A DNA stretch of 64,000 nucleotides from Linderina pennispora (Eukaryota; Kickxellomycota; Kickxellomycetes; Kickxellales; Kickxellaceae). The notes beneath the pieces were generated by a model, which was given only the letters and a program-made list of their open reading frames with translations, searched no databases and was not told the origin of the DNA. Below are positions 2,566 through 63,400 of the stretch, one piece after another. Within the stretch, counting starts at the first letter, position 1, and each line of letters starts with the position of its first letter. The position numbers and the translations under genes are program-made. The DNA is taken from positions 186,001 through 250,000 of the forward strand of contig NW_024468261.1 in NCBI RefSeq assembly GCF_002104995.1. The letters run 5' to 3'.

Positions 2566-3256
2566 CTAATCCCGACGGTACCGGTCACTGCGGTATGCCG
2601 GTGACGGCGTGCGCGAGTCCGATCTGGCGGCCTGCGGCGGCCGATCTTCAAATTCGCGTCTCCGACGCTCCTCGCGCTCCACGCGGCGCATCTCGCGCAG
2701 GGTCAGATCCTGGCCGTCAAACAGCGACTTGACCAGCGAGCGCGACGGCTTCCTGATGTGCATAAAGTTGCAGTATCCGCCACGGTTGCACTCGCCATTG
2801 TCGTATTGCCGGCAGCACGCTTCGCGGAAATCCGTCACCGGCGACAGCTCCGCCCACACCGGCAGCCCGCCGTAGTACCGGTTGTTGAGCGAGTCGACGG
2901 CCTTTTGCGCGTCGTCTTCGCGTCCGGTACTTGACGTACACGTTGCCCAGAAGGTGGTCGCCGACGTTGTCGCACACCTTCAGCTCCTCGATCTCGCCGT
3001 ACTTTGCCAGCTCCAGAAACATGTCCTCATAAAAGTCCTCGAAATGCTGCTGGATTTCGTCGTCCTTCAATTGGCAGTCGGGCTTCAGCGACGGGTTCTT
3101 GTACATGTTCGATACCAGAATTGTCTGCGAGTATGTCGGCTTCACGTGCCGCCGCGAGCACCGGTCGCCGTGCCTGCACGACCCGATCTTGTGGTAGAAC
3201 GAGCAGTGCACCTTGTCCTTCTCTGTGCCGAAAATTGACGCCAAATGCTCAGCCAT
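2566..3256 (-). CDS. U2AF1: U2AF small subunit (splicing factor U2AF35)
   Basis: The small subunit of the U2 auxiliary factor recognises the 3' splice-site AG as a heterodimer with U2AF65 in the nucleus. The protein starts [20 protein letters not shown] and has a first CCCH finger ([20 protein letters not shown]), a central UHM/RRM-like domain with the [16 protein letters not shown] helix region, then a second CCCH finger ([24 protein letters not shown]). The C terminus is Arg/Ser-rich and shorter than in animals. The UHM is interrupted by one extra base at 2920-2921; reading acg/acc once restores [19 protein letters not shown]. Its stop lies 93 bp from the stop of the convergent gene at 611-2472. 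Confidence 0.93.
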
Positions 3257-4321
3257 GCTGCCAGTACTACTAGTGTAAAAAAAGTCGAGTGAGGGTGAAA
3301 TGGCGTGCACTCGGAGTCGAAGCTGCCAGCACCTTTGCCCCTTGTGGCTCAGCTCGGCTCGCAGAGCGGGCATTGATCCATCGCCAGCCGCGGCACGTGA
3401 AGCCGGACCAATGAATGTGCGTCACAAGCGGGAAGCGTTGGGGCGAGGCGGCAGAAAGAAGGCCAGAAAGCTTTTTCTTCGTAGCTGGCCCGCGAGGCGG
3501 AAAAATTAGTCGTGGCTTTTTGCCTTTTGGCCAGACCCACAGCCCGCCAAGTCTCAGAAAATAGGAGAAAAAAAATTTTTTTTTTCGTTCTATCAACGGG
3601 CGCCGGCGTGGTTCTGGCGCGCTCCTCAAATAAAAACCGTCCACCTCCGTCCCGCTCCCTCAACCCCCAGCTCGTTTTATTCGTGTCCGACGCGTCTTTC
3701 TGCCCCCTGTGTCGCCTGGCCCTCACCTAACCCAGCTTGCCCGACGCAATCTGCCCAATACCGCCCAGGACAAATCCACGCGTCCCCTGTTCCCATATCC
3801 AATCTGTCGGAGCGCAAAAATCGTTCCACCTCTATATCTACGACCCGATTTTTGTCGCCCGTTTCAGCAATATTTTCGACTTTTTCTCTTTTTCCTCCAT
3901 CTCCCCCCTCTATTTCATACGCGTGTTTGCGAGCATTTTTATCGCGGCTATAGCGCTGGATTTGTCTGTCCCGGATATTTCGCCTCGCTATTAAGTGGTA
4001 GGTTGTCCAAAAAACATGTTTTTCTTGCTGCGTCCGGCGCCATATGGCGCGCGTCCCTAATCCCCTGGTGCACATACACCCGTCGCTCCTCCCCCATCTG
4101 CAGAGAGGTTGGAGGGGAAGCGAGATAGGGAGGTTTGTTTCTGGCGTAGTGGTTTTATTCTTATCATTAATTTTTGTAACTAAATACACTTTCAAACGTG
4201 CGCTTCCATCTCCTTAGCTCCAACCCTATCTGGAAACTCCATCTCTTTCTCTTTCTCTTCTTTTTCCTACTCCAACGGCAGCAGCAGCACCACACAAAAA
4301 CCTTCGAATCAAAGGCAGGGC
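3257..4321. promoter_or_regulatory. Divergent intergenic region between U2AF1 and the BET gene
   Basis: About 1.06 kb separates two divergent start codons. It holds A- and T-runs near 3566-3588 and long C/T-rich tracts from ~3640 to 3930 and ~4230 to 4300, directly upstream of the BET start. Open frames here have no recognisable product. I infer it carries both promoters and a pyrimidine-rich 5' leader for the + strand gene; no discrete factor site can be defended by eye. Confidence 0.4.
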
Positions 4322-6843
4322 ATGATGGCGAGTGAAGGCAATACCTCGAATGGAGATATTCCAATTAGCATCGATATCGCGTCGCCGGAGCAGATCGCAA
4401 CAGCAGCGCTCGCCCCTAGCGGCGATGTTGCCACAACACAGAAGCGGCCCGTCGACGACGGAACCACGGACATAGACATGGGCAGTTCGCAGCCATCTCA
4501 GCAACCGGCAGCACCTGTGGAGACAAAACCTAACGGGCACACAGCAGCAGCGTCCGATATGGACGTCGACCAGGACAGTTTGGAACCAGCAGCCAAGCGA
4601 GTGCGGGTAGAGTCGCCAAAGCCTGAGGATACTGCTGGCCTTGTTTCGACGCCTGAGAACAAGGAGAGTTTTGCGCCGGTCGCGTCAGAACCTGTCCCGG
4701 CCAAGACTGAAGCCCCTGTTCCTGCCGCCGTGGCTGCACCTGCCCCAGACGCTGTGGCAGCCCCTGCTCCTGCTCCCGCGTCGGCCTCCACCCCAGCTCC
4801 GGCCCCGGCACCAGCCCCGGCACAACTACACCGGACTGAGATTCTGATGACAAAGGAACAGCACAAGTATTGCACGGCGATGCTTAGGGCACTAAAAAAG
4901 CACCGCGACGCCGGACCGTTCCTGAAGCCAGTTGACGTGGTCGCGCTGAATATCCCCGACTACGTGAACATCATCAAGTACCCAATGGATCTGAGCACGA
5001 TCGAGAACAAGCTCAAGGGCCGTCTGTACGCAGACACGCAAGGATTCACGGACGACCTGCGGCTGATGTTCAACAACGCCTATATTTACAACGGGACGCG
5101 AGTCAGTGGTTGGGAACATGGCAGGTAATCTCGAGGCGATGTTTGATACGCAGATAAAGAAGATGCCGACAGGGCTTGATACCGCGCTTGCGGAGCACAA
5201 CCGGCATTCCTCTGACACCAGCGGCGGCCGGCGGTCCAGCTCGGTGTCGCGGCCCAAGCGTGAGGCCCATCCGCCCCCCAGCCGCGACGTGCCCAGCTCT
5301 GGGCGGAAAAAGTCGATGCCATCGGACCCGCAGCTGCGCTTCTGCCTGAATGTGGCCAAGGACTTTATGAAGAAGAGCAACTTCAACATTGCGTATCCGT
5401 TCTTGGAGCCCGTCGACCCGGTGGCCATGAACTGCCCCGACTACTTTGACATTATCAAGCAGCCGATGGATCTGACGACGATGAAGAAGAAGCTGGAGCG
5501 CGGTGCGTACCAGAACGCGCTCGACTTTGATTCTGATATGCGCCTTATGTTCCGCAACTGCTACACATACAACCCGCCCGGACACCCCGTGCATGAGGCA
5601 GGACGGGCACTGGAGGCTCGGTTCGACCAAAAGTGGACCGAGCTGCCGGTAGCAAGCTCGGCCCGTGCTAGCCAGTCACCGGCGCCGCACCCGTCGGCAG
5701 GCGCACCACCGCCTCTCCCGCCCTCGTTCTCTGTCAGTGGCGGCACGGCCATTGCACATTCGCAGTCCTTTCTCGCGGTCACACTCGCCTCCAGTCGGCG
5801 GCGAGGACGAGTTTGACAAGCATGTGTACACTCTCGACGACGAGATCGACATTGATGCGCGTAGCCAGTCGTCGCAGACAGACGAGATCCGCAGCCTGGA
5901 GCTCAAGGTGCAGAGCATGGCGCGGCAGCTGGAGGAGCTGAAGCGGTCTGAAGGCACAAAGCGGCGGCCGTCGTACGGCGGCGTCAGCGGCGGCACCCCG
6001 CGGCGTCCCAGTGTCGGCTCAGCGCGGTCGGCAACCCGATCTCCGCCGCCGCCTCTGTCGGCACCGCCTACCTCGATGTCGCATCGGCGAGTCGGCTCGA
6101 ATGCGACGTCACCAATCTCATCGACTGCTCCCATGGGCGTTGCTGGCTCGGGCCGTGGACGCGGCACGCCTGGCAGGCGCCGTGGATCGCGTGGGCGCGG
6201 AGCGCGCGGAGCAGCGGCAGGCATGACCCGCGAGGAGTTTGCAGGAATGGAGGACGCTCTGTACAGCGCGCCTCCAACTGGTGGTTCGGGACGCGGGCGC
6301 GGGCGCCGCCGTCGTGGCAGCATTGAGTCGCTGGAGCTGACGCTGGACCAGAAGCGGGCGCTGAGCGGGCGGATCGAGGAGCTGGACCCGAACCGTCTGC
6401 GGGTAGCGCTGATGATTATCAAGTCGGCGTACCCGGATCTGAACGAAGACGAGGAGGAGATTGAGCTGGACATTGACACGCTGGACCACTTCACGCTGCG
6501 CAAGCTGTACGAGTACGTGGTGCTGAGCCGCGAGGAGGCGGCGCGCGAAGCAATCCAGCGCAACAACGCGCAGCATGCGGAGCGGCGAGCTGGCAACAAT
6601 GGCACCAGCAGCAGCAACCAGTCGGCGCTGGCGGCACCGGTGCAGCCATCGGCGCACCCGCGGCCGGACGAGGCGGTGCAACGGCGTATCAACCAGCTGG
6701 ACGAGAAGCTGAAGCGGCTGGACTCGACCCGGCAGTACGACCGGAGCGGCTCTGGGCGCGCCAAGGGCATGGGATTCGATTCGAGCTCGAGCGGCGAGAG
6801 CGGGTCGTCGGACTCTGAAGATTCAGGTGATCATTCTGACTAA
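4322..6843 (+). CDS. BDF1: BET family double-bromodomain protein (BDF1-like)
   Basis: A chromatin reader that binds acetylated histone tails and links them to transcription. Domain order: a low-complexity Pro/Ala-rich N terminus (~170 residues); bromodomain 1 (from LMTKEQHKYCTAMLRAL, with PMDLSTIENKL and NAYIYN, the Asn that contacts acetyl-lysine); a linker; bromodomain 2 (LRFCLNVAKDFMKK, PMDLTTMKKKLE, NCYTYN); a basic Arg/Gly-rich stretch; the NET domain (LTLDQKRALSGRIEELDP to TLDHFTLRKLYEYV); and an acidic Ser-rich tail. Two +1 breaks occur: acg/acc at 5098-5099 in bromodomain 1 and tcg/tcc at 5762-5763 after bromodomain 2. Reading each as one base gives one continuous protein of ~840 residues, normal for fungal BET proteins. 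Confidence 0.93.
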
Positions 6844-8784: not shown

Positions 8785-8881
8785 ACGAAAAGCAAGAGCC
8801 GTTTTTTTTGGCTGTGTGTGCCTCATATACGTTTTTGTTTTCATTCACAGTCGCAAAAGTCTAGAAATTTGAGCATAAAGT

Positions 8882-11608
8882 CTATCTGCCGGTCTGCAGC
8901 CCGCGCTGCGACAGGTCAATGGTGAACGAGCGGCCGGTGCCCGGCGGTCGCGCCAGCGCCGGATGCATCTGCACGGCTACAGTGCATGACAGCGTCTGTG
9001 TGTGTACGGCTGGGACAATGTCGAAGCGGCGCCGCATCGACCGCTTCGGCGCGTGGGTCGGCAGCGGCGCCGTCTGCGGCAGCGAGCTGGCCTCGATGAT
9101 CGGCGACAATTTGCCTGGTGTTTTTGGCACCTGGTCGGTCAGCGGCAATGGCGCCGACCTCAGCGCAGGCGACCCGGGCACTACGCCGTTTGAAGTCGGC
9201 GGGCGGCTCGCGCCATTGCGTGACACCAGCAGCGGCGACGGCAGCGCATGGGCGGTGTTGTCGCTGAATGTTGACGATCGCGTGCGTCCGGACGAACCCG
9301 TGCGAGCCATCGGGTGGCCGGTGGTCTCCACCTCCCCTGCGGTGTGCGGGGGCCTCGGGGGCCTTTCGCTGGCTGTATCGCTGGGCCTCGCGGGTGCGGT
9401 CAGCGGCGTCGCCAATGCTATGGGCGAAATAGACACGGTGTATCGGCGATCAGCCTTCAGACCATTGGGCCGGCCCACGGTCTGCGGATGCGGCGATGCC
9501 GGCGACATGGGCAGTGTGCGCGAGGCGGATGCGCGGGAGCCCAGGTGCTTGGCTGGCGGGAACACGGTCGAGTTGCTGAGGCGGAGGTCGCATATGGACG
9601 CACCAGGCATGCCGATGATCAGCTCGATCCGCAACTGCCAGGCATTGGAGACGATGGCCGACTGGAAGCTGGCCTGGGCGGCCGGCAGTGTGGTCAGCGC
9701 AAAGCCCGTGGTCTGCGTGCTGCGGCAGAACTCGTGGTGCTCGCCGTGGACGCGGCGCGTCAGCTCCTCGGTCCGCTGGTCCGAGTGCAGGGAAAACCGC
9801 TCGCCAATGTGCTCGACGCTCTCGAGCCAGATGCTGACCTGGTAGACATGTACGTTGGCCACATGCACCTCGATCCTGCCTGACACCATGTCGCCCAGCT
9901 GGTAGCTGCGCTTGGGCAGCCACACGGAGGCCACCGCGCGCCCGCCCTGCGATAACGAGAAGGCCACCGGCGCCCGTCGCCGGCACTCGTCGCGGATGTG
10001 CTGCTTGGAGAGCTCCCCGCTGTCGCTGCTGGCGGGCGGCCCGCTAATGTCGATTGCAGGCACTGTTCCGTCGCTGCTTCGGCTGGCCGCGTCCAGCTCG
10101 ACGTGCTGCAGCATTGCCTTTAGGAACGCCGACTGCGCTAGCTGCGCACACAGGGCGTCAGATGAAAGCGCGTCGCTTGTCGGCACCACAGCCTCGCTGG
10201 CCGCGCATGCGCTGGGCTCCGCCGTGTCTGTGACCAGCGACGGCGAGTGGTTGCGTGGCGTAGCTCCTGGCTGCGACTCCTGGAACGCGACACGTGACTG
10301 GTCCGGTGCCAAGCGCACGGGCCTCGCCAGCCCATACTCGCGCAGCTTGCCATTGGCATCGACAAACGCCTGCACACGGAACGGGATCCGCACCACGTAT
10401 GCGCTGGACTCGAGCATGCTGCGCTTGGCCACTACCACCAGCTCGTAGCTGACCCGCGCTGACCGCCCGCGGAACGACGGCGGCAGCGTCGTCGGCAGCT
10501 GGATCTTTAGCGAAAACGTCTGCGACTCGCCCGTGCCCAGCGCCAGCTCGCTGAACAGCACCGTCGGCGACGAGATCAGCAGCGGGATCGCCTTGCCGGC
10601 CGACGGCGTCGTCGGCGTGCTGCTGCCCATGCCGCCGCCCATGAGCGTCGGGCTGGCTGCCCCGTTGGCGTCTGTAGCCGTGCCGCTGTTCTGCAGCAGA
10701 AGGTCCATCTGCTCGGGCTTGATATACGACGGGCTCAGCATCAGGCTGCCCGAGGCCTCAGCAAACCCAATCGCCAGCCGCTCCATGCCCTCGTCGGCTG
10801 CTACGCTGCCCGCACGTGTGGCTGGACGCGACGGCGGATTTGACCCCGAGATGTTCCGCCACAGACTGCCTAGCAGCCCGCCGCTATCGCTAGCCGTGCC
10901 ATCGTTGGGCACCCTGCGCGCCGATTCTTGCGCTGCTGCACGGTTTCCCAGCGAGAACCACGACGCCAGGCTGCCTGACGGGTTGCTGAGCACCGATGAT
11001 GTGCTGAGCCGCGGGAACTGGCTGGGTTCGGCTGCGCGGTTTTGAGGCCCACCGCCCAGCATCGGCGACTTGGCGAGCCGCAGGTCCCCGTCCCGCACCG
11101 TGCTCGGCTTTCTGTCGCTCCACCCGTCCAGCCCCAGCCCCAGCCCGTTGCGTCCGCTGGCGCGTCTGCTAACCGCCCCCAGTCGCGGCGAATGCTCCGT
11201 CGACGCCACCGACCCCTCACCCAGCGCCGGAAACACCGACAGCCCGCCAGTCTTCGCGCCAGCCGTGGTCCTCCTGCCAGTCCATGCGCTGCTGCGTCGC
11301 GGCCCCCTACTATTTCCGGGAATTGTCGAATGCTCTGGCCCGCCATCTAAATTCGCTCCCCCTGCCAGGCCATTCTGCACGCGCCCGCCAGTATCTGTGT
11401 GCCCGGCGCTGGTCGCAAAGCTCAGTGCAGCCTGCTGTCGTGGCGCCAGAACCTGTGTCCGCGCTGGGCCGCTGGGAGCATTTGCTGCTCGTATTGCCGA
11501 TAGTGTCTGCGTCGACCGCTCGTTGGCGAACCGGACGTGGCACTCGAGCGTGTCGCCTGCAAAGTATATGCCCTGCTTCTCGAACGTTGCTGTTATTGTC
11601 AACCCCAT
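8882..11608 (-). CDS. RGP1: RGP1 subunit of the RIC1-RGP1 Golgi GEF complex
   Basis: Rgp1 with Ric1 activates the Rab6/Ypt6 GTPase for retrograde traffic to the Golgi. The ATG at 11608 gives MGLTITATFEKQGIYFAGDT, the arrestin-like first strand of the family; a TTG three codons upstream is not a likely start. A long Ser/Gly/Arg-rich insertion follows (~35-290), then the conserved core (LPTTLPPSFRGRSARVSYEL, VRIPFRVQAFVD) and a second sandwich with YQLGDMVSGRIEV and SIWLESVEHIGERF. The end is VAVQMHPALARPPGTGRSF. At ~908 residues it is longer than yeast Rgp1, the excess lying in disordered inserts. No frameshift breaks it. Confidence 0.88.
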   Translation of the reverse strand: MGLTITATFEKQGIYFAGDTLECHVRFANERSTQTLSAIRAANAPSGPARTQVLAPRQQAALSFATSAGHTDTGGRVQNGLAGGANLDGGPEHSTIPGNSRGPRRSSAWTGRRTTAGAKTGGLSVFPALGEGSVASTEHSPRLGAVSRRASGRNGLGLGLDGWSDRKPSTVRDGDLRLAKSPMLGGGPQNRAAEPSQFPRLSTSSVLSNPSGSLASWFSLGNRAAAQESARRVPNDGTASDSGGLLGSLWRNISGSNPPSRPATRAGSVAADEGMERLAIGFAEASGSLMLSPSYIKPEQMDLLLQNSGTATDANGAASPTLMGGGMGSSTPTTPSAGKAIPLLISSPTVLFSELALGTGESQTFSLKIQLPTTLPPSFRGRSARVSYELVVVAKRSMLESSAYVVRIPFRVQAFVDANGKLREYGLARPVRLAPDQSRVAFQESQPGATPRNHSPSLVTDTAEPSACAASEAVVPTSDALSSDALCAQLAQSAFLKAMLQHVELDAASRSSDGTVPAIDISGPPASSDSGELSKQHIRDECRRRAPVAFSLSQGGRAVASVWLPKRSYQLGDMVSGRIEVHVANVHVYQVSIWLESVEHIGERFSLHSDQRTEELTRRVHGEHHEFCRSTQTTGFALTTLPAAQASFQSAIVSNAWQLRIELIIGMPGASICDLRLSNSTVFPPAKHLGSRASASRTLPMSPASPHPQTVGRPNGLKADRRYTVSISPIALATPLTAPARPSDTASERPPRPPHTAGEVETTGHPMARTGSSGRTRSSTFSDNTAHALPSPLLVSRNGASRPPTSNGVVPGSPALRSAPLPLTDQVPKTPGKLSPIIEASSLPQTAPLPTHAPKRSMRRRFDIVPAVHTQTLSCTVAVQMHPALARPPGTGRSFTIDLSQRGLQTGR

Positions 11609-11948
11609 TGCTGCCAACGCCTGTGGGTCGTCTAGTAATGCGTCAATGAGACAAGCAGAGAGAGCAGAAGAGGACTGGGATAATTACTAACAGGCAGTAG
11701 TAAACAAACTAGCTAACAAAAAATACAGGCAATTTCCAATGGCCAAGAGCAAAGGTCTGAAGAAGAGAGTGATGAAATCGAGACCAGAACTGGCTTGCTT
11801 CTCGTGGGCAAGACCTGATATTGGCCGCCCCATGCCATCGTCCCTGCTGGCGCCTTTTCTTTTTTCTTGGCTTTGATCCAAGAGGGAGCCTGTTGCTCGC
11901 GGGTCCGGTTTCAGGTTCGATTGTCCATTCAGCAACGCAAGAAAAAAA
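11609..11948. promoter_or_regulatory. Upstream region of RGP1
   Basis: This 340 bp gap lies between the RGP1 start and the stop of the next minus-strand gene. No gene is visible. It presumably holds the RGP1 promoter and the 3' end of the C9orf85 homologue. Confidence 0.4.
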
Positions 11949-13596: not shown

Positions 13597-13663
13597 AAAA
13601 AGAACCACATTCACCTTGCCTTTTCTCTCCCTTCACCGTACATTTCTATTAAAACCTGCTGCT

Positions 13664-14468: not shown

Positions 14469-16503
14469 TCATTTCTGAGGCTGCACAGGCATAAAGTTGC
14501 CGGCAATAGCTAGCGGGATCTTGTACTTGTCCCTCCTCAGCGTGAACGAGAAGCAGCAGTGGATCAGTTTGCCCGGCAGCGTCGGCTCGTCGCCCACACC
14601 GACATTCCTCGCCGCGTTCGCCCGCGCCGACCGCATGTCGCCGAGCGCAGGCTCCGGGTTATTGTGAACCATCGAGCGCACCGATGCAGCCGTCTGCAGC
14701 ATACACGACGTCAGGACGGCCTTCTGGGTCGCGTCAAACGCAATCTCGCCGTACTTCTCCCAGTAGTTGACCGTCGAGCTCTCCGTCATCAGCTCGTAGA
14801 TGCACACCTTGCCCTCGTGGAAATACGACAGCGGCACGCCCACCAGGTCGGCAAACTCACCGTTCGCCTTGTAAATCTCGCCGGTACGCCGCCACAGGCA
14901 CGCCGGCACCCCAAACGAATTAAACACATTGTCGTAGTCCAGCAGCAGCCGCTCGAAGCCCTCCTCCACCAGCAGCAGGTCGATGTCTGTCAGCGACTGC
15001 GCGATCGTACGGAACGTCGGGCGGAACGTGTTCAGCACCTCCAGTATGCGGATGATGTTGTGTCGGTTCATGTGCGTCTCCATGAACCGCTGCATCCGCG
15101 TGTATCCGCTCACGTAGTTGTATGGCTTCAGGAACCCGGCCTCATACTTTGCGTTGATGATCTGCCGCAGCTTGTCCTCGGATGTACCGTCGTTCGGATC
15201 TGCCGCCGTCAGGAAGAAACCGCTCGGTCTGTGTCACGTTCTCGCCCGAGCTGTTGATCAGCTGCGAGATCGTCGGCAGGCTATGCATCCGCGCCCTGGC
15301 GCACTGGCGGAGCCGACTGCGCATGCTGCACTGCTGCCATCGGCGGCGCCTGCTGCGTCTGATTCAGCTGCATGCCGTTCAGGCCGTTGGTATGTGGTAT
15401 TGCCATTACTGGCTGGTGTTGCTGTGCCGAGCTGGCCGGCGGCAGCATTGGTTGGAACGAGTCGACCAATGGCGAGCCCATGTTCTGATTGCTTGGATGC
15501 GCAATCGGCGACACGCTGGCCTGTTGGCTGCTGCGCCGATCGCCCGCCAGGATATCCGGACCGCGGACGCCTCGCTGCAGGCTGTTCAGGAACTCGTTAA
15601 TTGCGGTGAACTCATTGCTGGCCACATCGTTCCCGAACAGCATCAAAGGGTTGTCGTAGATCTTCATGTTATTTCGCCGCAGCGCTGCGCCCGCCTTCCG
15701 TCGACGGAGCCACGCCAGCCGCGCCCTGCGATGCTGCTGTAAACGCGCTCAGCACGCCGTTTCTGCTGCCCGCAAACCCCCTGGGGCCCAGCACTGGCGT
15801 GCCTTCCACGTCGCCCAGCAGCCCATGCGCCATGCCGATCCCCGGAAGACTAGCAGATCTGTCGCTGGGGTACGGCACAGCCATTGGCGTGACTGATGGC
15901 CCGCCCTGCACTGCCATCGATGGTGCCTGAGCCTGCTGCCGCCTTCTGCCTCGTGACTGCCCTCCGCTGCCGCTGCCACCACTGGCGCGCTGTTGGCTGG
16001 TGCTATCGAAACCATCGCCATCTCGCCTGTCCGCCGTAGATTCCGATGCCGGCTGCGTGGGCTTTTGCTTCTTGGTCTCGCCGGGCAAGCTGTCGGTCGA
16101 GGGGTCCTTATCGCGGCACAGATGGGCAATGTTTCGCTTGATACATCGCTGGCAGGGCCTTTCATCATCGCACGACATGTGCGATCGCTGGCAAAACACA
16201 CATGCTACACAGCAAGTAGCCGATGTCTCGATATCAGTCAAGAATGCTTCGCTCCACAGGCGCTCCAAGCCTGTTGCAGGGGCTCACGCCATCCCTCCTC
16301 TCCCTCAATACTGCTTACAAATATTGTCCCGTGTTGTTCATGAACAAGACCCACGTGAGAGGCCCCTTCACCCGCGCCTTCTTACCTTTGGAAACCTTTT
16401 GTCGTTTGGTGCGGTTGCCCGACTTCTTTTTGCGGCCTGCATCCTGCACCTGCTGTGGTTGCTGGACGCTGCTCGGCATGCCTCCGCCAGCCTCGCTTGA
16501 CAT
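14469..16503 (-). CDS. ERT1: ERT1/acuK-type Zn2Cys6 transcription activator of gluconeogenesis
   Basis: A nuclear regulator of the ERT1/acuK family, which controls non-fermentable carbon use. Exon 1 (16386-16503) is basic. An intron (16205-16385, GTAAG...TAG) splits the DNA-binding domain; splicing joins it to [22 protein letters not shown], a complete C-x2-C-x6-C-x5-C-x2-C-x8-C cluster. A Gln/Ser/Pro-rich linker follows, then the conserved block [38 protein letters not shown] and a PAS-like region with [20 protein letters not shown]. Three +1 breaks occur (near 15680, ~15300 and at 15216-15217, ttt/ttc); each can be read as two synonymous alleles. Ends [17 protein letters not shown]. Confidence 0.9.
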
Positions 16504-44475: not shown

Positions 44476-47400
44476 TCACAACTGAGAAGCACATGAGGTA
44501 TCGGCCACTGTCTGGCAGTGGATGCGGATGAGCTCTGTCTGGGCACATTGGCGGATGGCGTCGAAATCCACATGCGCCATGCATCCCCATTCGACGCACC
44601 ACGACCACTGTGCCGCTGGACATGTTGGGCTAGAGAGCCCGTGGAAAATGCGTGCCACAGCACGACCCGTCGCCACCTCATGACCGTGCTGCGCAATGAA
44701 GCGGCAGATGCGGCTCCTGGCTTCATCCGAAACCGGCTCCGATCCAGTCACAGATGTGCTGCCAGCCGGATCGTCAGCTAGACATGCAGGCACATCTCCA
44801 GCTATCTCTTGGATGCGCTGGACCGCGATATCACGGTCCGACTGCGTGGCGGCGAAATACGCCTCAGTGGCAGCCTGTAGGAAGGAGTTCTGTGCGCCCC
44901 CATTGTCTAGCACGGCGGCAGCACCCATGGTTTCCGCCAGTGCGTCGACCTTGCGCACATTCCCGCGCACCATCGCCTCGTTCTGGGACGCCAGAGCAGA
45001 GGCCAAGTCGGCAATGTGCTTTTCGATATGCATGGCTAGCTGCTCAACCCACCATTCCTCTGGATCGCAGTCCTTGGGCAACTTGCCTGGCTCGCCAACC
45101 ATCTCCGCGAACCGGCCGGTATCCAGGGTCACATTGACGACGGCTGAGGGCTCGAGCCATGTTAGCATGATCTCGCGCTTGGCCCTCCACCTGTACAGTT
45201 CAGAGATAGCATCGGTGGGAGTGGTGCCCAAGGCCGTGGCCAAGTCCAGGATATCGACAGTCAGTGTGGACGTGCGTTTGCTGGCGCTAGGCGTGCGGAC
45301 CAGCGATGTGCGCCGGGACCTGCGAGCACCTGCAGTAGGTCTGCGGGGCAGCAAAGTCGGCCAGCTTTGCAAACAGCTCATGGGATTCCGCTAACGTGCC
45401 TAGCTCGGTACGGACGAACCTCACCTGTGCATTTGCGGTGGATATTGGGCTCGGACGACGAACATCTGCTGGCTCGCGGAGCGCCAGGTAGCTGATGAAG
45501 GTCTGGGCAACCGCCTGCTCGGCATCCAGATCTGCCTCCAGCGACTTCAGACAGAGCACAGCCAGATTGGTTGCATGCCACGCCGCGCCGGGCGGGGTGC
45601 TGGATGAGCGCATTTGCTTGGCCTTGGCGATGGCCGAGCGCATGAACTCAGGCGGGAAGAGCCTGTGCAAAAGCCGGCGGACGGCTGCCAGATCGACCCC
45701 GTCAGAATTTGCCCAGCTGCGTGTGCGTGTCGCATCAATGCTGGTGCGGCTGCACGGCATGCCGTCGTCTGCTCCTACAGGCCAGCAGCAGAATGCCCTT
45801 GGCCGGCTGGCCATCGCGACCAGCGCGGCCGACCTCCTGCACATACGCCTCTGTGCTTCTGGGCAGATTGAAGTGGATGACTGCGCGAAGATCGCGCTTA
45901 TCCAGGCCCATTCCGAATGCCACCGTGGCCACCAGCACGCGGATGGCTGCTTTCTTCCTGCGGGATGTCTCTTGCATGAAGGCGGTTTGGATGCGTGTGC
46001 GCTCAGCCGCCGACTTTGCCCGCATGGTAGGATTGCGCGGGAATGGAGCGGCTGGTCAGGTACTCGGCCACTCGATTGGCCGTTGTCTGGGTTGCAACAT
46101 AGACAAGGATCGATTCCAAAGCAGCCATCTCTGGCTGGCGCAGGATCCCAAGCAGGGCTTCCTCGCGAGCACAGGACTTTTTGTACATCTTTGCGTTGGT
46201 GCCCATGTAGACTGGCACGACGCTCAGGGAGATGTTGCTGCGGACTATGTCGCCGCGGATAACACCTTCGGAAGCATCGATATCAAACATTTTACATACC
46301 TGTGTAGCCAGTGCGCTGGTGGCAGTGCCGGTCATGGCTAGCACGCAGGGGACATTGAGCAGGCCGCAGAACACGGGGGACCTGGAAGTATGCGGGGCGG
46401 AAGTTGTGTGACCACTCGCTGACACAATGAGGCCTCGTCGACGACCGCCAGCTGCACCTGCGGCGTGCGCTCAGACATCATCAGGTCATGGAACCGTGGA
46501 CTCGCTAGCCGCTCCGGTGACACAAACATAAGCTGGACCTGACCCGACGCCAGCCGCTGCAGAACGCTGCTGTAGCTAGAGGCATCAGCAGACTCGAGCG
46601 ACATGCAGATTGCCTTGGAACTCCTTTGGCAGATGCTTGATCTGGTCGCGCATCAGCGAGATCAGTGGGGTGACAACCAAAGTCAGCCCGTTGCAGAGCG
46701 AGGAGAGAAGCAGGGAGGGGAGCTGGTAGGCAAGCGATTTTCCAGAGCCAGTGGCAAGGAGGAGAAGCGTGGAGCGGCAGCCGAGGATCCGCCTGATAGG
46801 CCTCTGCCTGGCCGAACCGGAACTGGTCGTGGCCCCAGACATGCTTCAGGACCTTCAGTGTATCGACCGTGACATCATGGCCATCGATGAACTTTTCGCT
46901 GACTGTGCAGGAATTCTTGTCCGCTGAAGAATCATCGGCTACAAAGAACGACAGCGGTTTGCCCGCAACCATCCTGGCTGCCCAATGGTCTTGGGACTCA
47001 CTCTCTCCCACCGGCACTGGATCAGCATTTTCCGCTTCACTGCTCAGCTCCTCGTCAAATGCGCCGTCGAATTCATCCTTCCTCCGGATGCTCAGCATCA
47101 TCATCCTGCCGCTGCCTTCTCCTTTGCCGCCGCAGCACGCTCTCGGCGGTTCTTGCCTGCCACCATACGCTTGTACATGGCCGTGCGCCGTTCATCAGCA
47201 GATGGCGCCCCGCGCCTGCCTTTGCGCAGCCGCAATTTGTAAAAGTTGCTGCTGACAAGCCCGGACGTGTCCTCTTTGGGTTTTCGCATCTTCGCGTTGC
47301 CGTCATGGTCCACTGGTCTAAGCTTGACGCGGACGCGTGCTGCGCTTCTGGGTGGTCTTCTTCCTTGTTTTCATCTGCGACGTCTCAGCGTCACTGTCCC

Positions 47401-48399
47401 CAGACTTTCCTGCCGGGCTGTTGTTGCTAGCGTCTTCGACTAGATCGGCGTCTCCAAGCTCAGCTGTAAGGCCCGACATGGCCAATATCAAGATTGTCGC
47501 CACCGTCGCTCAAATGCCCGCCTTGCGATAATTCCAGCAACTGCTGAGGCTCCGCGGAACTGCGCTCCAAAGGCACTCAGCGGGATAGATGTGGTTTTGA
47601 CCAGCTTTCCAGCACGCGCCTGGAACGACTGCACTCCCAGGATCCAATGTGCGCATCGAGCCGATCAGCGTTCTGCGCCGGCTCTTCGGATCCTCTGGTT
47701 CGCCCAGCGACGACAATGAGCTGGTGCTCGATACTGAAGAAAATGGCCCAGCACTAGCACGGCGTGCAGCCATCATTGCTGACCGACTCACCGATGGCGT
47801 CTGCCTCTGGAACAGCGAGGGCACCGGCGGCACATCTTCAACCGCCATCTCTGTATTTTGATCAAGTGGCAATATATCTGCAAACAACGGCCCGCTGCAC
47901 GCTTGGGGTCTCCATCCTCAGTAACCGTCGTGTCCGACTCTGCTGCCTGCGTAATTGGCGAGAAAACCATCGCCGTAGTGCGTCGGCGCTTGGGCGTCGC
48001 CTCAATTTCGTCTGCATGGTCGCCGGACTCCTCAGCAATAGCCGATATGCTTATTGACTGCAACAGCGTGCTCGCTCTTCTGGATCTGCCGCTCCTTCTG
48101 CTCATCGATCAGCCTGCGCTGGGGCTCTGCCGACTTGCGCTTTGGTGGGGCCGGCGGCTTGCCTGGGAAATCCGTGTGCCGCCGCTGCAGCCGCTTTTTC
48201 TGCGCCGAATTGCCACCCAGGGCCTTTAGCTTGCTGTAGTTGCGGTACTTTGCGCACAATGTCGGGCTGCAGCGACACGTCGTCGCGGGTGGGCGCTCGG
48301 CCATGGGCCTTCTGGAAGGCGCCCTCCCAGTCTTTCAATTCATGCTTGAGTCTGTGCAGCTCGGCGTCGGGGACTGCTGTCGGCGAGAGCTTCTGACAT
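44476..48399 (-). CDS. RECQL4: RECQL4-type DNA helicase with fused Sld2-like N terminus
   Basis: N terminus MSEALA then [19 protein letters not shown] and [11 protein letters not shown], the Sld2/RECQL4 N-terminal domain that acts in replication initiation. Further on is [16 protein letters not shown], matching the linker motif of animal RECQL4 upstream of the helicase. RecQ motifs: [27 protein letters not shown] (Walker A, near 46740), [32 protein letters not shown] (motif II, near 46430), [20 protein letters not shown] and [17 protein letters not shown] (motif VI, near 45830). The C terminus has [14 protein letters not shown], as in human RECQL4; the DUF1998 domain of yeast Hrq1 is absent. 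At least eleven +1 breaks (for example 48248 aaa/aag, 47335 acg/acc, 46798 gcc/gct, 46614 caa/cag, 46430 gcc/gct) fit paired alleles. About 1,300 residues. Confidence 0.88.
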
Positions 48400-48791: not shown

Positions 48792-50318
48792 ATGCTCGAT
48801 ATCAACATGTTCCAGATTGAGAAGGGTGGCAACCCCGAGGCCATCCGCGAGTCGCAGCGCCGCCGCGGTGCCGACCCCAAGATCGTCGACGAGATCATTG
48901 CCGACTACCAGGAGTGGACCAAGGGTAAGTTGGGTGCCATTGCCAAATCCCGCCGTAGGAACTCGAAATTCCAGCTCCCCAAATTGCCCGCTGTGCAGGG
49001 ACTGTTTTTTTTTTTTGCATCGACTTCGCGCTGCGGCATGACAGGTGCTAGATGTGAGGTGTTAGACATTGTGACGCACTAACAAAAAATCACAACTGCG
49101 TTTATAGTCAACTTTGAGCTCAACGCCGTCAACCGCAGCATCAACGCCGTGCAGAAGGACATTGGCAAGAAGTTCAAGGCCAAGGAGGACGCCTCGGAGC
49201 TGCTGGCGAAGAAGGCGGAGCTGGAGCAGCTGAAGAAGGATCTGTCCGAGACCGAGCAGGCCAAGGACAAGGCCCTGCGCGCCAAGGTCAACACTGTCGG
49301 CAACATTGTGCACGACTCGGTCACTGTCAGCAACACCGAGGACGACAACGACGTTGTGCGCACGCATTTCGTCGATGGCGTCGAGCCCAAGCACCAGCCG
49401 GAGCTGCGCTCGCACCACGAGGTCCTGTATCTGCTCGGCGGCTATGACCAGGAGCGCGGCGCCAAGGTCGCCGGTCACCGCGGCTATTTCCTGACCGGTG
49501 TTGGTGTCGATCTGAACCTGGCGCTGATCAACTACGGTCTGCAGTTCCTGGGTAAGAAGGGATACACCAAGATTCAGACCCCGTTCTTCATGCGGCGCGA
49601 GATTATGGCCAAGACCGCCCAGCTGTCGCAGTATGACGAGGAGCTGTACAAGGTTACCGGCGAGGGCGAGGACAAGTACCTGATCGCCACTTCGGAGCAG
49701 CCGATCTCTGCTTTCCACTCGGGTGAGTGGTTCGAGCAGCCCGCCGAGCAGCTCCCGGCCAAGTACGCCGGCTACTCGACCTGCTTCCGCAAGGAGGCTG
49801 GCGCTCACGGCAAGGACACCTGGGGAATCTTCCGCGTGCACCAGTTCGAGAAGATCGAGCAGTTTGTCTTGACAGAACCCGAGAAGTCGTGGGCTATGTT
49901 TGACGAGATGATCGCCACCTCGGAAGAGTTCTTCCAGTCCCTCGGTATCTCGTACCGGGTTGTCGGCATTGTTTCCTCGGCGCTCAATGACGCCGCTGCC
50001 AAGAAGTTCGATCTGGAGGCCTGGTTCCCTCACCAGGGCGAGTACAAGGAGCTTGTGTCGTGCTCGAACTGCACTGACTACCAGTCCCGCAACCTCGAGA
50101 TCCGCTGCGGCACCAAGAAGATGGGCGACCGCGAGAAGAAGTACGTGCACTGCCTCAACTCCACTCTGTGCGCCACTGAGCGTGCCCTGTGCTGTCTGCT
50201 GGAGAACCACCAGACCCCCGAGGGTCTGAGGATCCCCAAGCCCCTGGTTCCGTACATGGGTGGTGTCGAGTTTGTGCCGTTTGTCAGGGACACTCTGCCC
50301 AAGAACATGAAGAACTAA
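48792..50318 (+). CDS. SES1: Seryl-tRNA synthetase, cytosolic
   Basis: Charges tRNA-Ser. Two exons: 48792-48924 ([20 protein letters not shown]) and 49108-50318, joined in phase 1 across a 183 bp intron with a GTAAGT donor, an internal T-run and a TTATAG acceptor. The N-terminal tRNA-binding coiled coil spans ~30-115. The class II core has [20 protein letters not shown] (motif 1 region), [34 protein letters not shown] and [14 protein letters not shown] (motif 2), and [18 protein letters not shown] (motif 3, active-site Arg). About 447 residues, near yeast Ses1 (462). No frame break. Confidence 0.97.
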
Positions 50319-50444
50319 GGTTCGCGAAAAGTTCATTAACAGACTTCAATATATCATTTAACGATATTGGAGCATATCAGCCGTGCATGCGATTCATTCC
50401 AGATAATTGATGGTTACATACACATATTGAAAAGCTGATACAGA

Positions 50445-54110: not shown

Positions 54111-56905
54111 CTAAGATTCGTCATCGTCATCGTCGTCGCCGTTCTTTGTTTTGGAACCACCAGGAGTGACATTGAACGCTGTTAATGATGAATTTTGGCG
54201 ACACCCAGGTTTGGAACCCCTCAGGGTCGCTGGGATCGCGCAGTGGCCTCAGAGCATCGATACGCACACGGTATTCTCCGGGCTCAGCTGTGAACGCTTG
54301 AGTGAGCTCTTGATCCCGGAATAATGTGCCGTTTATGGTGGCGTTGGAGAAACGGCCTTTGATGCCCTGGTAGTTGCGGCCCATGTACTCGAGATATCCG
54401 TATGGCAGGTAGCCAACCGACTGGTTGCGGCTATCGATCAGCTGCAGCTTCAGCCTGGCTGTTGGGTGTTCTAGGCGGTAGTGTACTGCGAGTTTGTGCG
54501 TGTCGTCAATATTGAAGTCATCACCATCTGCAATCGGGTCGGTTGAGCCCTTGACGCTCACGTACGGCAAGCCCTGCTCGGGCGGCGACAAAATATCTTG
54601 CGCTGAGTAGTCACCCAGGAATCCAGTGTACGGAATATGCAGGCTCTGAGCCGTTCCTGCCGGATCGTCCCATAAGAAGTTGAAGCGCAAGTAGCCACCA
54701 AAGAACCAGCGATCGGTCAAGCTGAGTCCCGTGGGAGGGGTGATACGAACCCGTACACGCTGTACACTATTAGGACCAATTCGGATTGGCAAGGACTGGC
54801 CATCAATGACAGCCTGGGGCTGCATGTCGGGTGAAACGCTGCTAGTAGCATCCTCGGGCCAAGTGCGCGGTACAGCGGCAAAGCTGCCGTTGGCAAGGAA
54901 CGAGGATACTGAAGATGCCGGCAGATTGGTCATTGTGCATGTTAGGTGGTGAGCCGTGTTGTGGTTGTAGAGCTTCAGCGTGCGGTACACTTCGCCAGAG
55001 GATGAGCGACCCGGACCACTGCTGATCTGCGGAGGGACACTGCGCATGGCAAGCGTATCGTCGATCCGTCGCTTTGCTACACTTGCATCGTCATCAGTCA
55101 CCGTCGAGTTGATCGAGATTTGCGGGGGGTCAATGGTGGCCAGGGCACTAAGCGAATCAAAAATATTGGTGAGACCAGACCCCTGGCGTAGCGGGGATAG
55201 AAGCTCAGTCTTATTCCCGTCGTTGATCGGGTGCGCGCTCTCCAGAATCAGCCGCTTCACTTCACCAGTACTGACACGCATCTTCTTGGACTGCAGGATC
55301 AATGCAGCCATGCCAGTCACATACGGCGTTGCCATCGAGGTGCCTGACAGCGATGTGTACCCGCCAAGGGCCAGAGGGAACGTCGAAAAGATGTTACCGC
55401 CAGGGGCACCAACTGCAGGTGATATATACAGCTCGGGATCGGGTCCCCACGAGGAAAAGTGCGAGATCTGGCCTCCTGACGGATTGACCTCGCTAACTGT
55501 ATGGTTGGTTGCAGTCAAGGTGACAGTACCGCGCTTGAGTTCACCCTGGATAGTCTCACCGTCAGCCAGCTTGATGACCACGAGCGGGATTGTGACATTA
55601 AGCGAGACAGATGTCGGCGACATAAGCTCATTTTCGAAGTTGTACACAACCACACCGATGGCACCAGCTTGCTGGGCATAGAGGGCCTTGTCGACAAACG
55701 TGCAGTTGCCACGCTTAACAAACGCAATCTTGTTGGTCAGATTGGCATTGTTGTAGGGTGCACAGCCCTCGTTGGAACCAGTGCTGTCGGTGGCGCCGGA
55801 TATCTCGACTGGCGAAGCGAAAGAAAAGCCGAATTTGCTGTTTCCAGGCGACGAATGCACAATCGACATGTTGATGTTAGGGCCGACAATGTCAATACTC
55901 AGGCTGGTTAGCATCCAGTTGTCAAACGATGCGACAGAGATAACGCCGTCGCCCAGGCTAGGGGATCCGGATGTGTACAGGCCGTTAGCGCCATCATTGC
56001 CAGCAGACGCTACAACGATGACTCCGGCACTCACCAGCCGCGAGGCAGCTACAGCCAGCGCGTCCTCTTTCCAGCTCGGGCCGCTGCCAAAACTCATGTT
56101 GAGTACGTCCATGCCGGTCCCTGTGTGCAGCCTCCATGGCCTTCAGAATGACATCGTCTGCAGCCTGGCCAGTGCCGTTTCCGGGGCAGCCAAAGATGCG
56201 GTAGATACCGAGGGTGACGCCTGGAGCCACGCCTTTGACCCTCGATCCATGGGCAGCAATAATACCCGTGACATGCGTACCGTGGCCATCGCAGGTATCG
56301 CGCGGGTCGGGTCCTGGCTTTGGGTGCGGCGAGCTCGACGAGTCATATTTGTCGCCGACAAAATCCTCGCCGTACTGGAACGGACACCCGGGCGTCTTGA
56401 AGCAACCGCCCAGATCCGGGTGCATGTAGTCGACGCCTGTATCAATCACGCCGACCTTTACTCCCGTGCCATCGAGACCGAGCTCCCTTTGCACTTTGTC
56501 GACACCGGTGTGCGAGTGTGCGTACATGAGGTTTGGTGTGGCATTATCTGTGTGGATTGCAGTCAGGCGCGTGCGCATCTGCATTGGCCATGAGCGCTTT
56601 ACCCCTGGCATGGATGTCAGGGTCTCCAGATCACGCTTGTCAGGAAGGTCGATGGAAACACCGTTGAAAAGGCGCCGGAATGAATTGCGGGTGCGGACCT
56701 TGATGCCGGAGGCCGAGACCAAGCGGGCAAACTGGATGTGCTCGAGCTGACTCTGCAGGGTTGCCGGTTCGCTCATAAACTCTATAAAGTATGACCCAGC
56801 CTGGACCTCCGATGGGCCACTGGGCAGCGGCAGCGCTTGCCGCATAGGAATAGCACAGCCGAGCGCACCAAGCGCTAAGTATGTCACCAATCGTAATATT
56901 TGCAT
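54111..56905 (-). CDS. Secreted subtilisin-like serine protease with PA domain (S8 family)
   Basis: A signal peptide (MQILRLVTYLALGALGCAI) is followed by an inhibitor-I9-like propeptide (AGSYFIEFMSEPATLQSQLE to ~130). Catalytic domain: Asp in VGVIDTGVDYMHPDL, His in GHGTHVTGIIAAHGSRVKG, oxyanion-hole Asn in VVASAGNDGANG, Ser in LSGTSMATPYVTGMAALIL. A PA domain is inserted between His and Ser (CAPYNNANLTNKIAFVKRGN, AGAIGVVVYNFE). An Fn3/C5a-peptidase-like C-terminal region follows. The arrangement is that of minor extracellular protease/Vpr-like fungal subtilases. Breaks: ~56131 (gca/gcc), and one ~54178 (att/ata) after which the frame ends with a short acidic Asp-rich tail at 54111 instead of an Arg-rich end at 54127. 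About 920 residues. Confidence 0.92.
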
Positions 56906-59893: not shown

Positions 59894-60452
59894 TTTCCAA
59901 TGTACTTTGTAAATTGTCGATAGGCTGAGGTAATAGCAGTGGTATTGCGTGTGGGGAAGAGGAAGAAGGAGAGCGAGAGATGCAAGCGGTCCAGCGCAAC
60001 GCGGTCTAGACGGTCTACTTCAGGAACTTGCGCCATGCACAAACTTGGACTAGCATAGGATAATAACAAGAGGGCCGTAGCATCTGCATCATGCTATCCC
60101 CGCCACTGCTGTTTGCTAGACATCTGGCACAAAACGTTGATTGAATGTCTCTGCACTCCACATGTGCTGGGCTTCGGTGGGGGGAAGATGGTCAAGTGGA
60201 AAAAGCAAAGTGCTAAAAATAATCGCACTCGCCCGTTTGAAAGCGGCAGGTGGCCATTGGCCAGGCGATGGGCGACTGGTGTGGGGAGCCAAAAATCCAG
60301 CCAGCTCCAGCTTGCCCTCTGCAAACGTTTCCTCGATTTTTGCACACTTTCTGCTGTTTTATTTTGCCGTCTATCGCACATAATTCCCTCCCCTCTCCCT
60401 ACAGTCCCTACAAATTCCAACCCGCACACCCGTTTCGTGGACTCTAGAGAAA
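59894..60452. promoter_or_regulatory. Divergent promoter, SH3 membrane protein / MIL1
   Basis: 559 bp between divergent genes. A C/T-rich leader at 60320-60440 precedes the MIL1 ATG. Short open frames on both strands show no recognisable product. Confidence 0.4.
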
Positions 60453-63400
60453 ATGTCCAGCGATGCATTTAGACACCAGCAGATGCGCGCCAGCATAAGC
60501 GGACGGGGCAGCCCCTCTGTGCACAGCGTCGGCACTCCGCGAATGCGCGAGTATTCCGGGCCACTGCCGAACCACCCAGCGCGCGGGCACTCCGAGACAT
60601 CGCTGTCTGTGGTTGTTCCCGATATGCCTGTGCCGCTAGGCTCTGTGCCCACAGCGCTGGCACACCGGGTGGACCGGCGGCGCGACTACTATACCGACAG
60701 CCAGACGCTGGGCGCAGCCATGGGTGCAGCAGCACCAACCAACACGGGAATCAGATACAGCACCTCGGAGCGGCCTGACTCGACAACAATGTCGCTGGCG
60801 CCAAAAAGCAAAAGCTGCAGCACCAGCGATTCACCATATCAGCGAACCAGGCAAACGGTCGCCGGCATTCAGACGGGCACCGGGCAAGTCCCCGGGTGGG
60901 TACGGCGCAGAGTCGCATCTGCCGAGGTTTATGGTCGACAGGATGCTGCGTGAGAGCGAGAAGCCAGAGTCAATGAGCGGACGGACAAGTGTGGCCAGCG
61001 CCCGGAGTCAGAGCTCGGCAGGGTCGCCTAAACCCAACCAGCAGGCATCTATGAGGAGCATCCTGGAGATCGAGGAGGCAAAGCTATTGGCGGCTGAGCG
61101 GCAGAACCAGCTACATGCCAGCGACGGCATTCTGTCGGAGGAGCAAAAGGTTGCATATGTCGGGCTGGTGTATCTGCTGCTGGTGGACATGCAGGACCGG
61201 CTCAATGTGCAGTTCAAGGAGTCCCAGTCATCGACAGCCAGCTTCATGAATTTTTCGCGTCGGGTCATGCGCAAGATGTACAGGCATGTCAGCATCTCGC
61301 TTGAGGAGCAGCGCATGATCGATATGCTGCCGCGCCACAAGATCCAGATAGAAGACATGGCGGCCTCGCTGGCGGCCCAGGGCGACACAATCATTGTTGA
61401 GGCAGACCAGGAGCTGGCGGTTGCGCACCTAGCAACTGACGACCTCGTGCATGATCTGAAACCAACTAGAGACAGCGCTGAGGAGGAGCGCGAGGATAAG
61501 AAGAAAAGGAAGAACAAGCTGGGGCTCAGTTGGATGGGCAGCGGGTCGCTGGAGAACACGGATGACGAGGACAGCGACATGTACTCGCAGTACTCGATGC
61601 TGCCGACGGATGCACCGGATAGACAGTCGTTAGATGGCGCCGAGAAGCAGAAGCGCTCGTTTGACAGCGATGTTTCTGAGAAGCAGCTCCCAGAACCTGC
61701 GAATACCTCTTCGGAGCAGCCGGCGGCTCGGATATCAGTTGGCAGTGATAGCGCTGGACTGTCTGGGCGCGAGACAAGCGGTGAGACGGTGCAGACAGAT
61801 ACAGACGATGCCGTACCGCCATACGTCAGCATGTTCTGCTCAGAACCGCAGACGCCTATATCACCAATGCCTCCATCCATCAACGACCTAGACGACGAGA
61901 CGCTGACCAAGGTTGATGTCGACCAGACGCTTGTAATCGACGTGCGTGCGACCCTAATTCTCGACCTATTCCTGCTCCTGCTGACTGACGATGTGTATGA
62001 CAGCCGCAGCCGCTACCTGCTGCGTCGCATGGCTGAAGCCATCGGCTACCCGTGGGTCGAGGTGATGAAGTGCGAGCGACGCGTAACGCGCCAGCTGTGT
62101 CTGCATGAATATGCTACTGACGTGCGGGTGGCGACCAAGGACTCGTCCAAGAGCGTGCTAAAAGAGCATGCCTCCAAGGGCAAGAAGAAGCGTCTGATGA
62201 TTATCGGTTTGGCCACAGTGGGCGGCGGGCTCGTGATCGGTCTCAGCGCCGGGCTCTTGGCGCCAGCCATTGGTGCAGGCATTGGTGCAACCCTAGGTGC
62301 TATTGGCGTGGCTAACACCGGTGCGTTCTTTGGCAGCATTGGAGGCACTGCGCTGATCACTGGCGCAGCGACGCTGACGGGCAGTGGGCTGGCGGGGCGG
62401 CAAATTACCAGGCGCACGCGGTTTGCCGAGCAGTTCGAGTTTATCCCATGCATTAGTGAGCAGCAGACGAACCTGATTCTGACTGTGCCTGGATGGCTGG
62501 GCAAGGCCGATAATGGCGTGTTTTCGTTCTCGACGCTTGACCCGCTGAACGGCGACCACTGCAGTCTGCTGTGGGAGTCAGAGGCGCTGGGGCGGCTTGG
62601 CAGCTCGCTGCGCATGATTGTCGGTGAAGTGTTTTCAATTACGTTGACCCAGACCCTGCAGCACACAGTTTTGCCGAGCCTGCTTGGACCACTGTCGATT
62701 CCAATGTGGCTGGCCAAGCTCGGGTACGTGCTCGACAACCCGTGGTCCACCGGCTGCGACATGGCGGAAAAGGCAGGGCCAGTACTGGCTGATCTTTTGC
62801 TGCAGCGCGTGCAGGGCCAGCGGCCGGTGACACTGGTTGGATACTCGATCGGCGCACGCCTGATATTTTATGCCCTGCTGGAGCTGGCACGCATGAACGC
62901 CTTTGGGCTTGTAGAGGACGTGTACTTGTTTGGCGCGCCTGTAGTGGAGTCGTCCGAGGAGTGGCGGCGTGCAGCCAGCGTCATCGGCGGGCGGTTTGTC
63001 AATGCGCACAGCGGCAAGGACTGGATTCTCAGCTTCTTCTACCGCACCACCAGCCTTGGACGCAACTCCATCGCTGGCCTGCATCCGATCACCGGCGTCA
63101 ATGGGCTGGAGAACATGGACATCTCGGAGCTTGTGCCTGGCCACGCAGCGTACCGCGAGCTGATGCCGCGGCTGATGAGCAAGCAGGGGATCCGGGTTAC
63201 CAGCACCGAGCTGCACGACCCGAATGAGACGGTGTCTGGCGACTCGACGCACGACCGCGAGATGATCGAGGAGCTGGAGAAGGCGGCCGAGCTGCTAGAA
63301 GCCCACGATAAGAAGAAGAAGAAGTGGATCCAGAAGCTGACGTTCTGGGACTCGGGGTCGTCGAGCTCGACGAGGAGGGGGTCGGTCAGCAGCTCAGACT

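Follow-up and report, generated by a model that had tools for sequence, protein, structure and literature searches.

Frame breaks in conserved genes

Why should conserved genes, one after another along a fungal contig, be interrupted by single extra bases? The window considered here is the whole analysed stretch of 64,000 nt from Linderina pennispora (GCF_002104995.1, contig NW_024468261.1, forward strand 186,001-250,000). We consider it highly likely that the 53 one-base breaks counted in it are an assembly artefact, in which both alleles of heterozygous SNPs were written side by side. The genes and their breaks ('+1', one extra base; '-1', one missing base) are as follows.

2600..3256, minus strand: U2AF small-subunit-like gene; two '+1' (alignment to P0004)
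4325..6826, plus strand: bromodomain (BDF1-like) gene; two '+1' (alignment to P0130, an L. pennispora EC988 record)
8888..11632, minus strand: Rgp1-domain gene; zero breaks called
14471..16178, minus strand: ERT1/acuK-type transcription factor gene; six '+1' (alignment to P0131, L. pennispora)
20905..22272, minus strand: TPR part of a CYC8-like gene (glucose repression mediator); two '+1' (alignment to P0121)
25136..25770, plus strand: part of a ribosomal protein L3 gene; one '+1' (alignment to P0045)
30689..32812, plus strand: PSP1-domain gene; 11 '+1' (alignment to P0167, an L. pennispora EC988 record)
33500..34665, plus strand: gene that we take to be aminomethyltransferase-like; three '+1' and one '-1' (codon model only, without a reference protein)
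34895..36368, minus strand: aldehyde-dehydrogenase-like gene, as named in the sequence-only reading of this DNA; three '+1' (alignment to the L003 paralogue protein)
41351..42331, plus strand: MraW/RsmH-type methyltransferase gene; five '+1' (alignment to P0002)
44514..48399, minus strand: RECQL4-like helicase gene; 21 '+1' (16 against P0242 and 5 further downstream against P0243)
49107..50315, plus strand: long gene, presumably seryl-tRNA-synthetase-like; zero breaks called
54119..56835, minus strand: subtilase gene; two '+1' (codon model only)
60474..63552, plus strand: DUF726 gene; one '+1' (codon model only)

Breaks do not affect every gene of the window, the Rgp1-domain gene being an example. 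The aldehyde-dehydrogenase-like gene has intact paralogues in the same genome. Searches of the window for tRNAs and Rfam families gave zero matches.

Alignment of nine genes to their closest proteins gave 53 '+1' and no '-1' breaks, in a step that tilts slightly toward '+1' (it may take the best of four codons); this count comes from ten gene-reference alignments, with one overlapping RECQL4 event left out. A reference-free codon HMM, which has equal penalties for both directions and no such tilt, called 46 '+1' and 8 '-1' breaks over 41.8 kb of called coding sequence; its training set was 12 of the original 20 paired loci. Both counts bear out the observation of the sequence-only reading, which had reported more than 45 single extra bases. 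Across all 16 alignments there were two '-1' breaks, both against the more distant RECQL4 reference P0241, and P0242 and P0243 resolve both places as two nearby '+1' events, as had been proposed for the '+2' shifts. Twelve of the 14 break sites named in that reading agree with the best alignment set to within 1 base, and with a closer reference the sites at 5098 (BDF1) and 41970 (MraW) shift by 2 and 4 bases, both still as synonymous pairs.

Codon usage, as judged by the codon HMM, remains of coding type on either side of the breaks, which argues against real extra bases. The same-species protein records P0130, P0131, P0002 and P0167 run uninterrupted across the breaks, a further point against them, although these are predicted proteins and themselves unable to show a break.

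Base composition of the breaks and of haplotype SNPs

We defined a well-anchored break as one flanked on each side by at least six codons with at least 70% identity, which kept 31 of the 53 and dropped 22. A synonymous pair X|Y, in which the extra base Y following codon base X would encode the same amino acid, is present at 26 of these 31 breaks (the other five lack a synonymous reading) and at 40 of 53 when all sites are counted, so that the earlier wording 'at almost every site' is slightly strong. When bases were inserted at random into unbroken parts of these alignments, synonymous pairs resulted in 1054 of 2340 cases (45%), 439 of them (42%) transitions. Transitions account for 24 of the 26 observed pairs when the first pair is taken where two exist. 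A synonymous transition thus occurs at 24/31 anchored breaks versus 18.8% by random insertion (p about 2e-12). It was also claimed that the extra base never equals the wobble base, which is true, but by construction. Codons with two-, three- and four-fold degeneracy are all represented among the break sites, and which of X and Y comes first on the plus strand follows no clear rule. Another tally, 30 of 31 anchored breaks touching a transition pair, was left unused: it has no matched null (about 55% for a single random base) and, unlike the 24/26, prefers the transition where two synonymous pairs exist.

The Falcon assembly of L. pennispora is described in passages of PMC6757388 as likely diploid, with more than 20% associate bases and 24.72% allelic models; the paper gives the same verdict on the assemblies of Catenaria anguillulae PL171 and Rhizoclosmatium globosum JEL800. 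Within this one 26.2 Mb assembly we found both haplotypes present in places, as ten contig pairs; nine align at 95.7-98.5% identity, and four long gaps bring the tenth (L029/L030) down to 89.1%. SNPs between the separated haplotypes of nine pairs are transitions in 1348 of 1663 cases. Among coding SNPs, 545 of 753 are synonymous, and 496 of those 545 (91%) are transitions; the make-up of the break pairs is that of real haplotype SNPs. One-base extras adjoin their transition partner in 83 of 124 cases over all nine pairs (chance about 55%, p 0.003). The 30 of 34 seen in L015 plus L018, against the same chance level, was set aside, these two loci having been picked after the table was seen. Close to the C165 haplotig end, the distances from two L015 breaks to the nearby extras are 2 and 22 bases, and at these extras L016 has one base of a transition pair. 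Many one-base differences between haplotigs fall in homopolymers.

A second contig over a broken stretch

Locus L040 had been taken as single-copy, a status overturned by contig C93 (L042), which covers its bases 1-6046 at 99% match. Within about 45 bases of each of its seven '+1' breaks, L040 has one base more than L042; at all seven L042 has a single base where L040 has the extra base adjoining its transition partner. A synonymous reading is available at five of the seven and at none of the remaining two. Over the whole shared stretch, one-base extras adjoin a transition partner in 17 of 20 cases in L040 and 5 of 13 in L042. Because L040 is broken despite the second contig, the label 'single-copy' indicates merged sequence only roughly.

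Break density and presence of a second copy

Where no second copy was found (the window and L037-L039), 64 '+1' and 10 '-1' breaks occur in 58.7 kb of coding sequence, and 22 loci with a second copy have 32 and 23 in 127.0 kb. This amounts to 10.9 versus 2.5 '+1' per 10 kb coding, with copies assigned by a search that missed a known one: in a control, the L014 query returned neither its known haplotig L013 nor its own place, perhaps because stretches already included are skipped. One copy search scored 39 of 319 candidates. This search, which missed the known haplotig of L014, found no second contig for the window; the same weak DNA search found no long second copy of L037-L039, returning paralogue-like stretches and 371 bases of C124 on L039, a locus whose selection followed the finding that its carrier repeats do not share one frame.

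An earlier contrast, with L040 still counted as single-copy, gave 71 '+1' and 10 '-1' in 65.1 kb versus 21 and 16 in 115.9 kb; transferring L040 and L042 to the paired loci reduced it to the figures above. L025 alone accounts for seven '+1' and eight '-1' of this first paired set, which without it has 1.3 '+1' and 0.7 '-1' per 10 kb, so that '-1' breaks are not simply equal on both sides. We do not rely on a further contrast, mitochondrial-carrier repeats lying in a single frame in 16/16 paired and 15/32 unpaired genes (150 of 151 matches), because the pairing rule favours intact copies; by-eye regrouping gave 19/24 versus 12/24. The checks on the copy search weaken the density argument, and the L040/L042 comparison adds direct evidence.

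Consensus model and nature of the source

According to passages of Korlach et al. 2017 (PMC5632298), early Falcon assemblies gained indels where the merged haplotypes have different nucleotides. The present breaks would likewise fall at haplotype-differing nucleotides in merged sequence from a heterozygous source. The form of the indel, which those passages do not give, was measured here: nearly all are '+1', with X beside Y, and mostly synonymous coding transitions. Our search of the open-licence literature by title or abstract found no description of this synonymous X|Y form. The breaks are most likely a known kind of assembly artefact, here with an unusually clean signature. The proposal of the sequence-only reading, a heterozygous source whose alleles were concatenated by the consensus, is supported by the SNP-like make-up, the single bases in L042, the uninterrupted same-species proteins, a public gene model that omits short stretches near breaks, and the literature. 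The five anchored breaks that lack a synonymous pair, and a density contrast based on a copy search with a failed control, fit it less cleanly.

In the process that we envisage, a likely diploid L. pennispora was sequenced with long reads and its haplotypes were merged in stretches. Individual reads would carry X or Y, not XY, and at a heterozygous SNP in a merged stretch the consensus software would write X and then Y. The source would be a balanced diploid (or dikaryon), and the faulty step may be a consensus whose error model penalises a lost base less than a mismatch.

We simulated such a consensus with real SNP contexts, 60-fold depth and three error settings, the error rates being assumed from general knowledge. 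At 50:50 SNPs, the likeliest single sequence was XY in 0.8, 3.5 and 13.8% of cases under the three settings, and a dropped base in 0/600 at each (1/60 in a small simulation at 24-fold depth). Assuming equal heterozygosity in merged and separated parts, the observed XY share would be about 7.5%. XY appeared in 0/600 cases at 30:70 alleles, at homozygous sites or with short-read-like errors; as modelled, the simulation favours an allele dosage near 50:50. Simulated XY sites adjoin an equal base in 80/83, 20/21 and 5/5 cases. The observed breaks do so in 17/26, above the 39% baseline and below the simulation, which indicates that the real caller differs from the modelled one.

The same artefact could have come from a dikaryon, a heterokaryon or a mixed culture and not from a diploid nucleus, a variant that we regard as rather unlikely. 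Diploid, dikaryotic and mixed sources would look alike in sequence alone, and mismatches between haplotigs range from 0.9 to 2.4% over the ten pairs. Against this variant, the assembly is called likely diploid in the passages of PMC6757388 cited above, and the near-equal alleles that the simulated artefact needs would be rare in a chance mixture.

Residual errors and real insertions

Residual insertions of one base, an ordinary kind of error in long-read assemblies and independent of alleles, likewise shift the frame by one base and break up gene models. They do occur in this assembly, as seen in homopolymer differences between haplotigs and in paired loci broken both ways ('+1'/'-1': L025 7/8, L031 5/2, L042 4/7); these loci resemble poor contig ends. 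L025, at the start of C105, is a poor contig start; the idea that L025/L026 represents a mixed consensus, suggested by the 34 one-base extras of L026, was withdrawn, given L025's seven '+1' and eight '-1' breaks. Unlike the breaks in the window, however, such errors run in both directions and lack an allele-like make-up, with extras adjoining a transition partner in 25/44 cases in L025/L026 versus about 55% by chance, and in the 5/13 already given for L042. Random indel error would predict neither a preferred direction nor a transition bias, and the window departs from both (53:0 and 46:8; 24/26 transitions versus 42%). We therefore hold it very improbable that residual errors explain the breaks.

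Programmed +1 frameshifting is known in Euplotes and Ty elements, where, as here, reading requires a +1 step. That the extra bases are real, through such frameshifting or in pseudogenes, is hardly credible even though the deposited assembly has them within otherwise conserved genes: L042 shows one base only at 7/7 L040 breaks and relatives' proteins are uninterrupted, so no programmed shift site is kept; loci with both haplotypes are far less broken (by the copy search that missed a known copy); and there is no evident biological reason for inserting a synonymous transition partner.

Consequences for annotation

With the breaks read as alleles written side by side, the broken genes are very probably intact in the organism. 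Protein sets and the numbers of introns and pseudogenes derived from this assembly would be wrong wherever haplotypes were merged. Whether alleles written side by side generally record heterozygosity in finished long-read assemblies, as a fossil that can be studied without reads, is, in our view, an evenly balanced question. If so, a scan for '+1' synonymous transitions would reveal balanced diploids (or dikaryons) among deposited early-diverging fungi, map part of their SNPs and flag false mini-introns, all without raw data. The X|Y signature could then serve as a cheap ploidy test for fungi, for which a diploid ancestor has been inferred (passages of PMC6784888).

Gene finders had been expected to invent mini-introns here, and the public model of the MraW/RsmH-type gene (P0022) does skip four stretches of 37-91 nt around breaks, which are most simply explained as false introns. 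This deposited methyltransferase model falls short of its relative by 69 residues.

Frame breaks in the window

Single-base frame breaks in the window are biased towards extra bases. A three-periodic codon HMM, used without reference proteins and penalizing extra (+1) and lost (-1) bases equally, called 46 +1 and 8 -1 breaks across the 41.8 kb that it read as coding; these fall on or close to the positions given in the sequence-only reading. When nine genes were aligned in a frame-aware manner to close relatives (same-species proteins P0130, P0131, P0002 and P0167; Linderina macrospora, Coemansia and others), the closest references required 53 +1 and 0 -1 breaks; 31 are well anchored, and some of the 53 lie in weakly conserved or gapped stretches. 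In the MraW methyltransferase gene (window 41351-42331, forward strand), alignment replaced an HMM -1 call with two nearby +1 breaks, at 42239 and 42264. Very probably, the breaks are artefacts in intact genes.

Pieces of the public methyltransferase model P0022 ("bacterial methyltransferase [Linderina pennispora]", 256 aa) match window 41351-42330 exactly. The model leaves out four segments (37 to 91 nt) around breaks, whereas the EC988 methyltransferase protein (325 aa) is continuous across them. The prediction that gene finders would invent mini-introns here therefore holds in the one gene tested.

Composition of the extra bases

For each break, all positions fitting the reference equally well were taken as one set. 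A synonymous pair of adjacent, unequal bases (X and Y, the putative alleles side by side) was present in 26 of the 31 well-anchored sets, and in 1054 of 2340 trials when bases were inserted at random where those alignments are unbroken. Transitions make up 24 of the 26 synonymous window pairs (92%) versus 439 of the 1054 random ones. The synonymous pattern previously proposed for almost every site thus describes most anchored breaks but not the other five, four of which adjoin a transition pair whose two readings would differ in amino acid and one of which adjoins none.

Both haplotypes are present in places in the assembly that contains the window (222 contigs, 26,172,285 bases; the window is C35 186001-250000), where ten contig pairs were aligned. 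Across nine of these (L025/L026 was omitted as poor), transitions account for 1348 of 1663 mismatches; 545 of 753 coding mismatches are synonymous, 496 of them transitions (91%). The make-up of the window pairs agrees with that of haplotype SNPs (92% and 91% transitions), unlike that of random insertions. In one locus, L018, the stretch at about 8100-9960, aligned with L017 and outside called genes, has many one- or two-base extras, most beside a transition partner, and may be a partly merged zone.

The window breaks are most likely a clear case of the already known haplotype-merging artefact of early Falcon long-read assemblies, in which indels arose at bases differing between haplotypes (PMC5632298). 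Passages of PMC6757388 place L. pennispora ATCC12442, the probable source strain, among likely diploid assemblies: Falcon associate bases exceed 20%, and 24.72% of models are allelic.

Comparison with second contigs

A direct comparison is offered by L040 (C157 299001-309000), which has 7 +1 and 0 -1 breaks by the codon HMM, and whose first 6,046 bases match C93 at 99% identity up to the end of that contig. At all seven breaks the matching C93 stretch (L042) has a single base and L040 one more, no farther than about 45 bases from the HMM place; every extra adjoins its own transition partner, five of the seven can be read as synonymous, and two fall where the HMM reads L042 as break-free. Over the whole shared stretch, one-base extras adjoin a transition partner in 17 of 20 cases in L040 versus 5 of 13 in L042 (p 0.009). 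The breaks of L042 itself (4 +1, 7 -1) look like contig-end errors. At the C165 haplotig end, L015 has two breaks close to extras (2 and 22 bases away) at which its haplotype partner L016 has one base of the transition pair. Since L042 and L016 show a single base, the extra base is absent from the other contig at these places.

Searches for a long second copy listed none for window 1-53800, and less surely none to 64000; they are weak evidence, as a control search with L014 missed its known haplotig. The window matches that were listed comprise aldehyde-dehydrogenase paralogues (76%), 276 bases at another place on C35, and repeats; the window helicase domain (45810-46013) occurs once among all 93 scored family candidates. 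Where no copy was found (the window and L037-L039), 58.7 kb of coding sequence has 64 +1 and 10 -1 breaks; for the 22 loci that have a copy, the counts are 32 and 23 over 127.0 kb. Taken at face value, given the weak copy search, this is 10.9 versus 2.5 +1 breaks and 1.7 versus 1.8 -1 breaks per 10 kb.

Beside two of the sampled loci, a duplicate lies on the same contig: L037 126-1655 with C146:454946-456486 (93% identity) and L038 8422-9917 with C112:918571-920074 (89%). These are apparently paralogues, not alleles.

Simulated consensus

Haplotig SNP contexts were simulated with insertion- and deletion-rich errors at assumed rates, and a maximum-likelihood consensus was called at 60-fold depth. 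With 50:50 reads, X or Y was called at most sites and XY at 0.8, 3.5 or 13.8%, depending on the error setting, and a base was dropped in 0 of 600 per setting; at 24-fold depth, one was dropped in 1 of 60. Neither 30:70 reads nor homozygous sites nor short-read-like errors gave an XY call (0 of 600). An indel-rich consensus of 50:50 reads would double some SNPs with losses absent, and if such a model operated, the partial doubling and lack of losses would be accounted for. Simulated XY calls adjoined an equal base in 80 of 83 cases versus 17 of 26 observed, and because the modelled caller overpredicts this adjacency, it is not the real one, although the mechanism is of the right kind. The signature flags merged heterozygous sequence without any reads and, according to the simulation, would also flag near-equal allele dosage.

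Other observations

On C201 (about 833-905 kb; L003, L004), two aldehyde-dehydrogenase paralogues and two helicase genes are mirrored around 868.77 kb. Between the two paralogue loci there are 62 mismatches over 4371 columns (1.4%, haplotype-like), with a third copy on C213 (L005); the mirror is either two haplotypes joined head-to-head or a real palindrome. A 576-aa open frame at L003 1345-3075 lies antisense to an intact aldehyde-dehydrogenase gene; long frames alone are poor gene evidence here because GC-rich third positions readily yield antisense frames. The window has no Rfam match, and window 63601-64000 belongs to a repeat (400 bases or longer) found at 86-92% identity in at least 39 genomic places.
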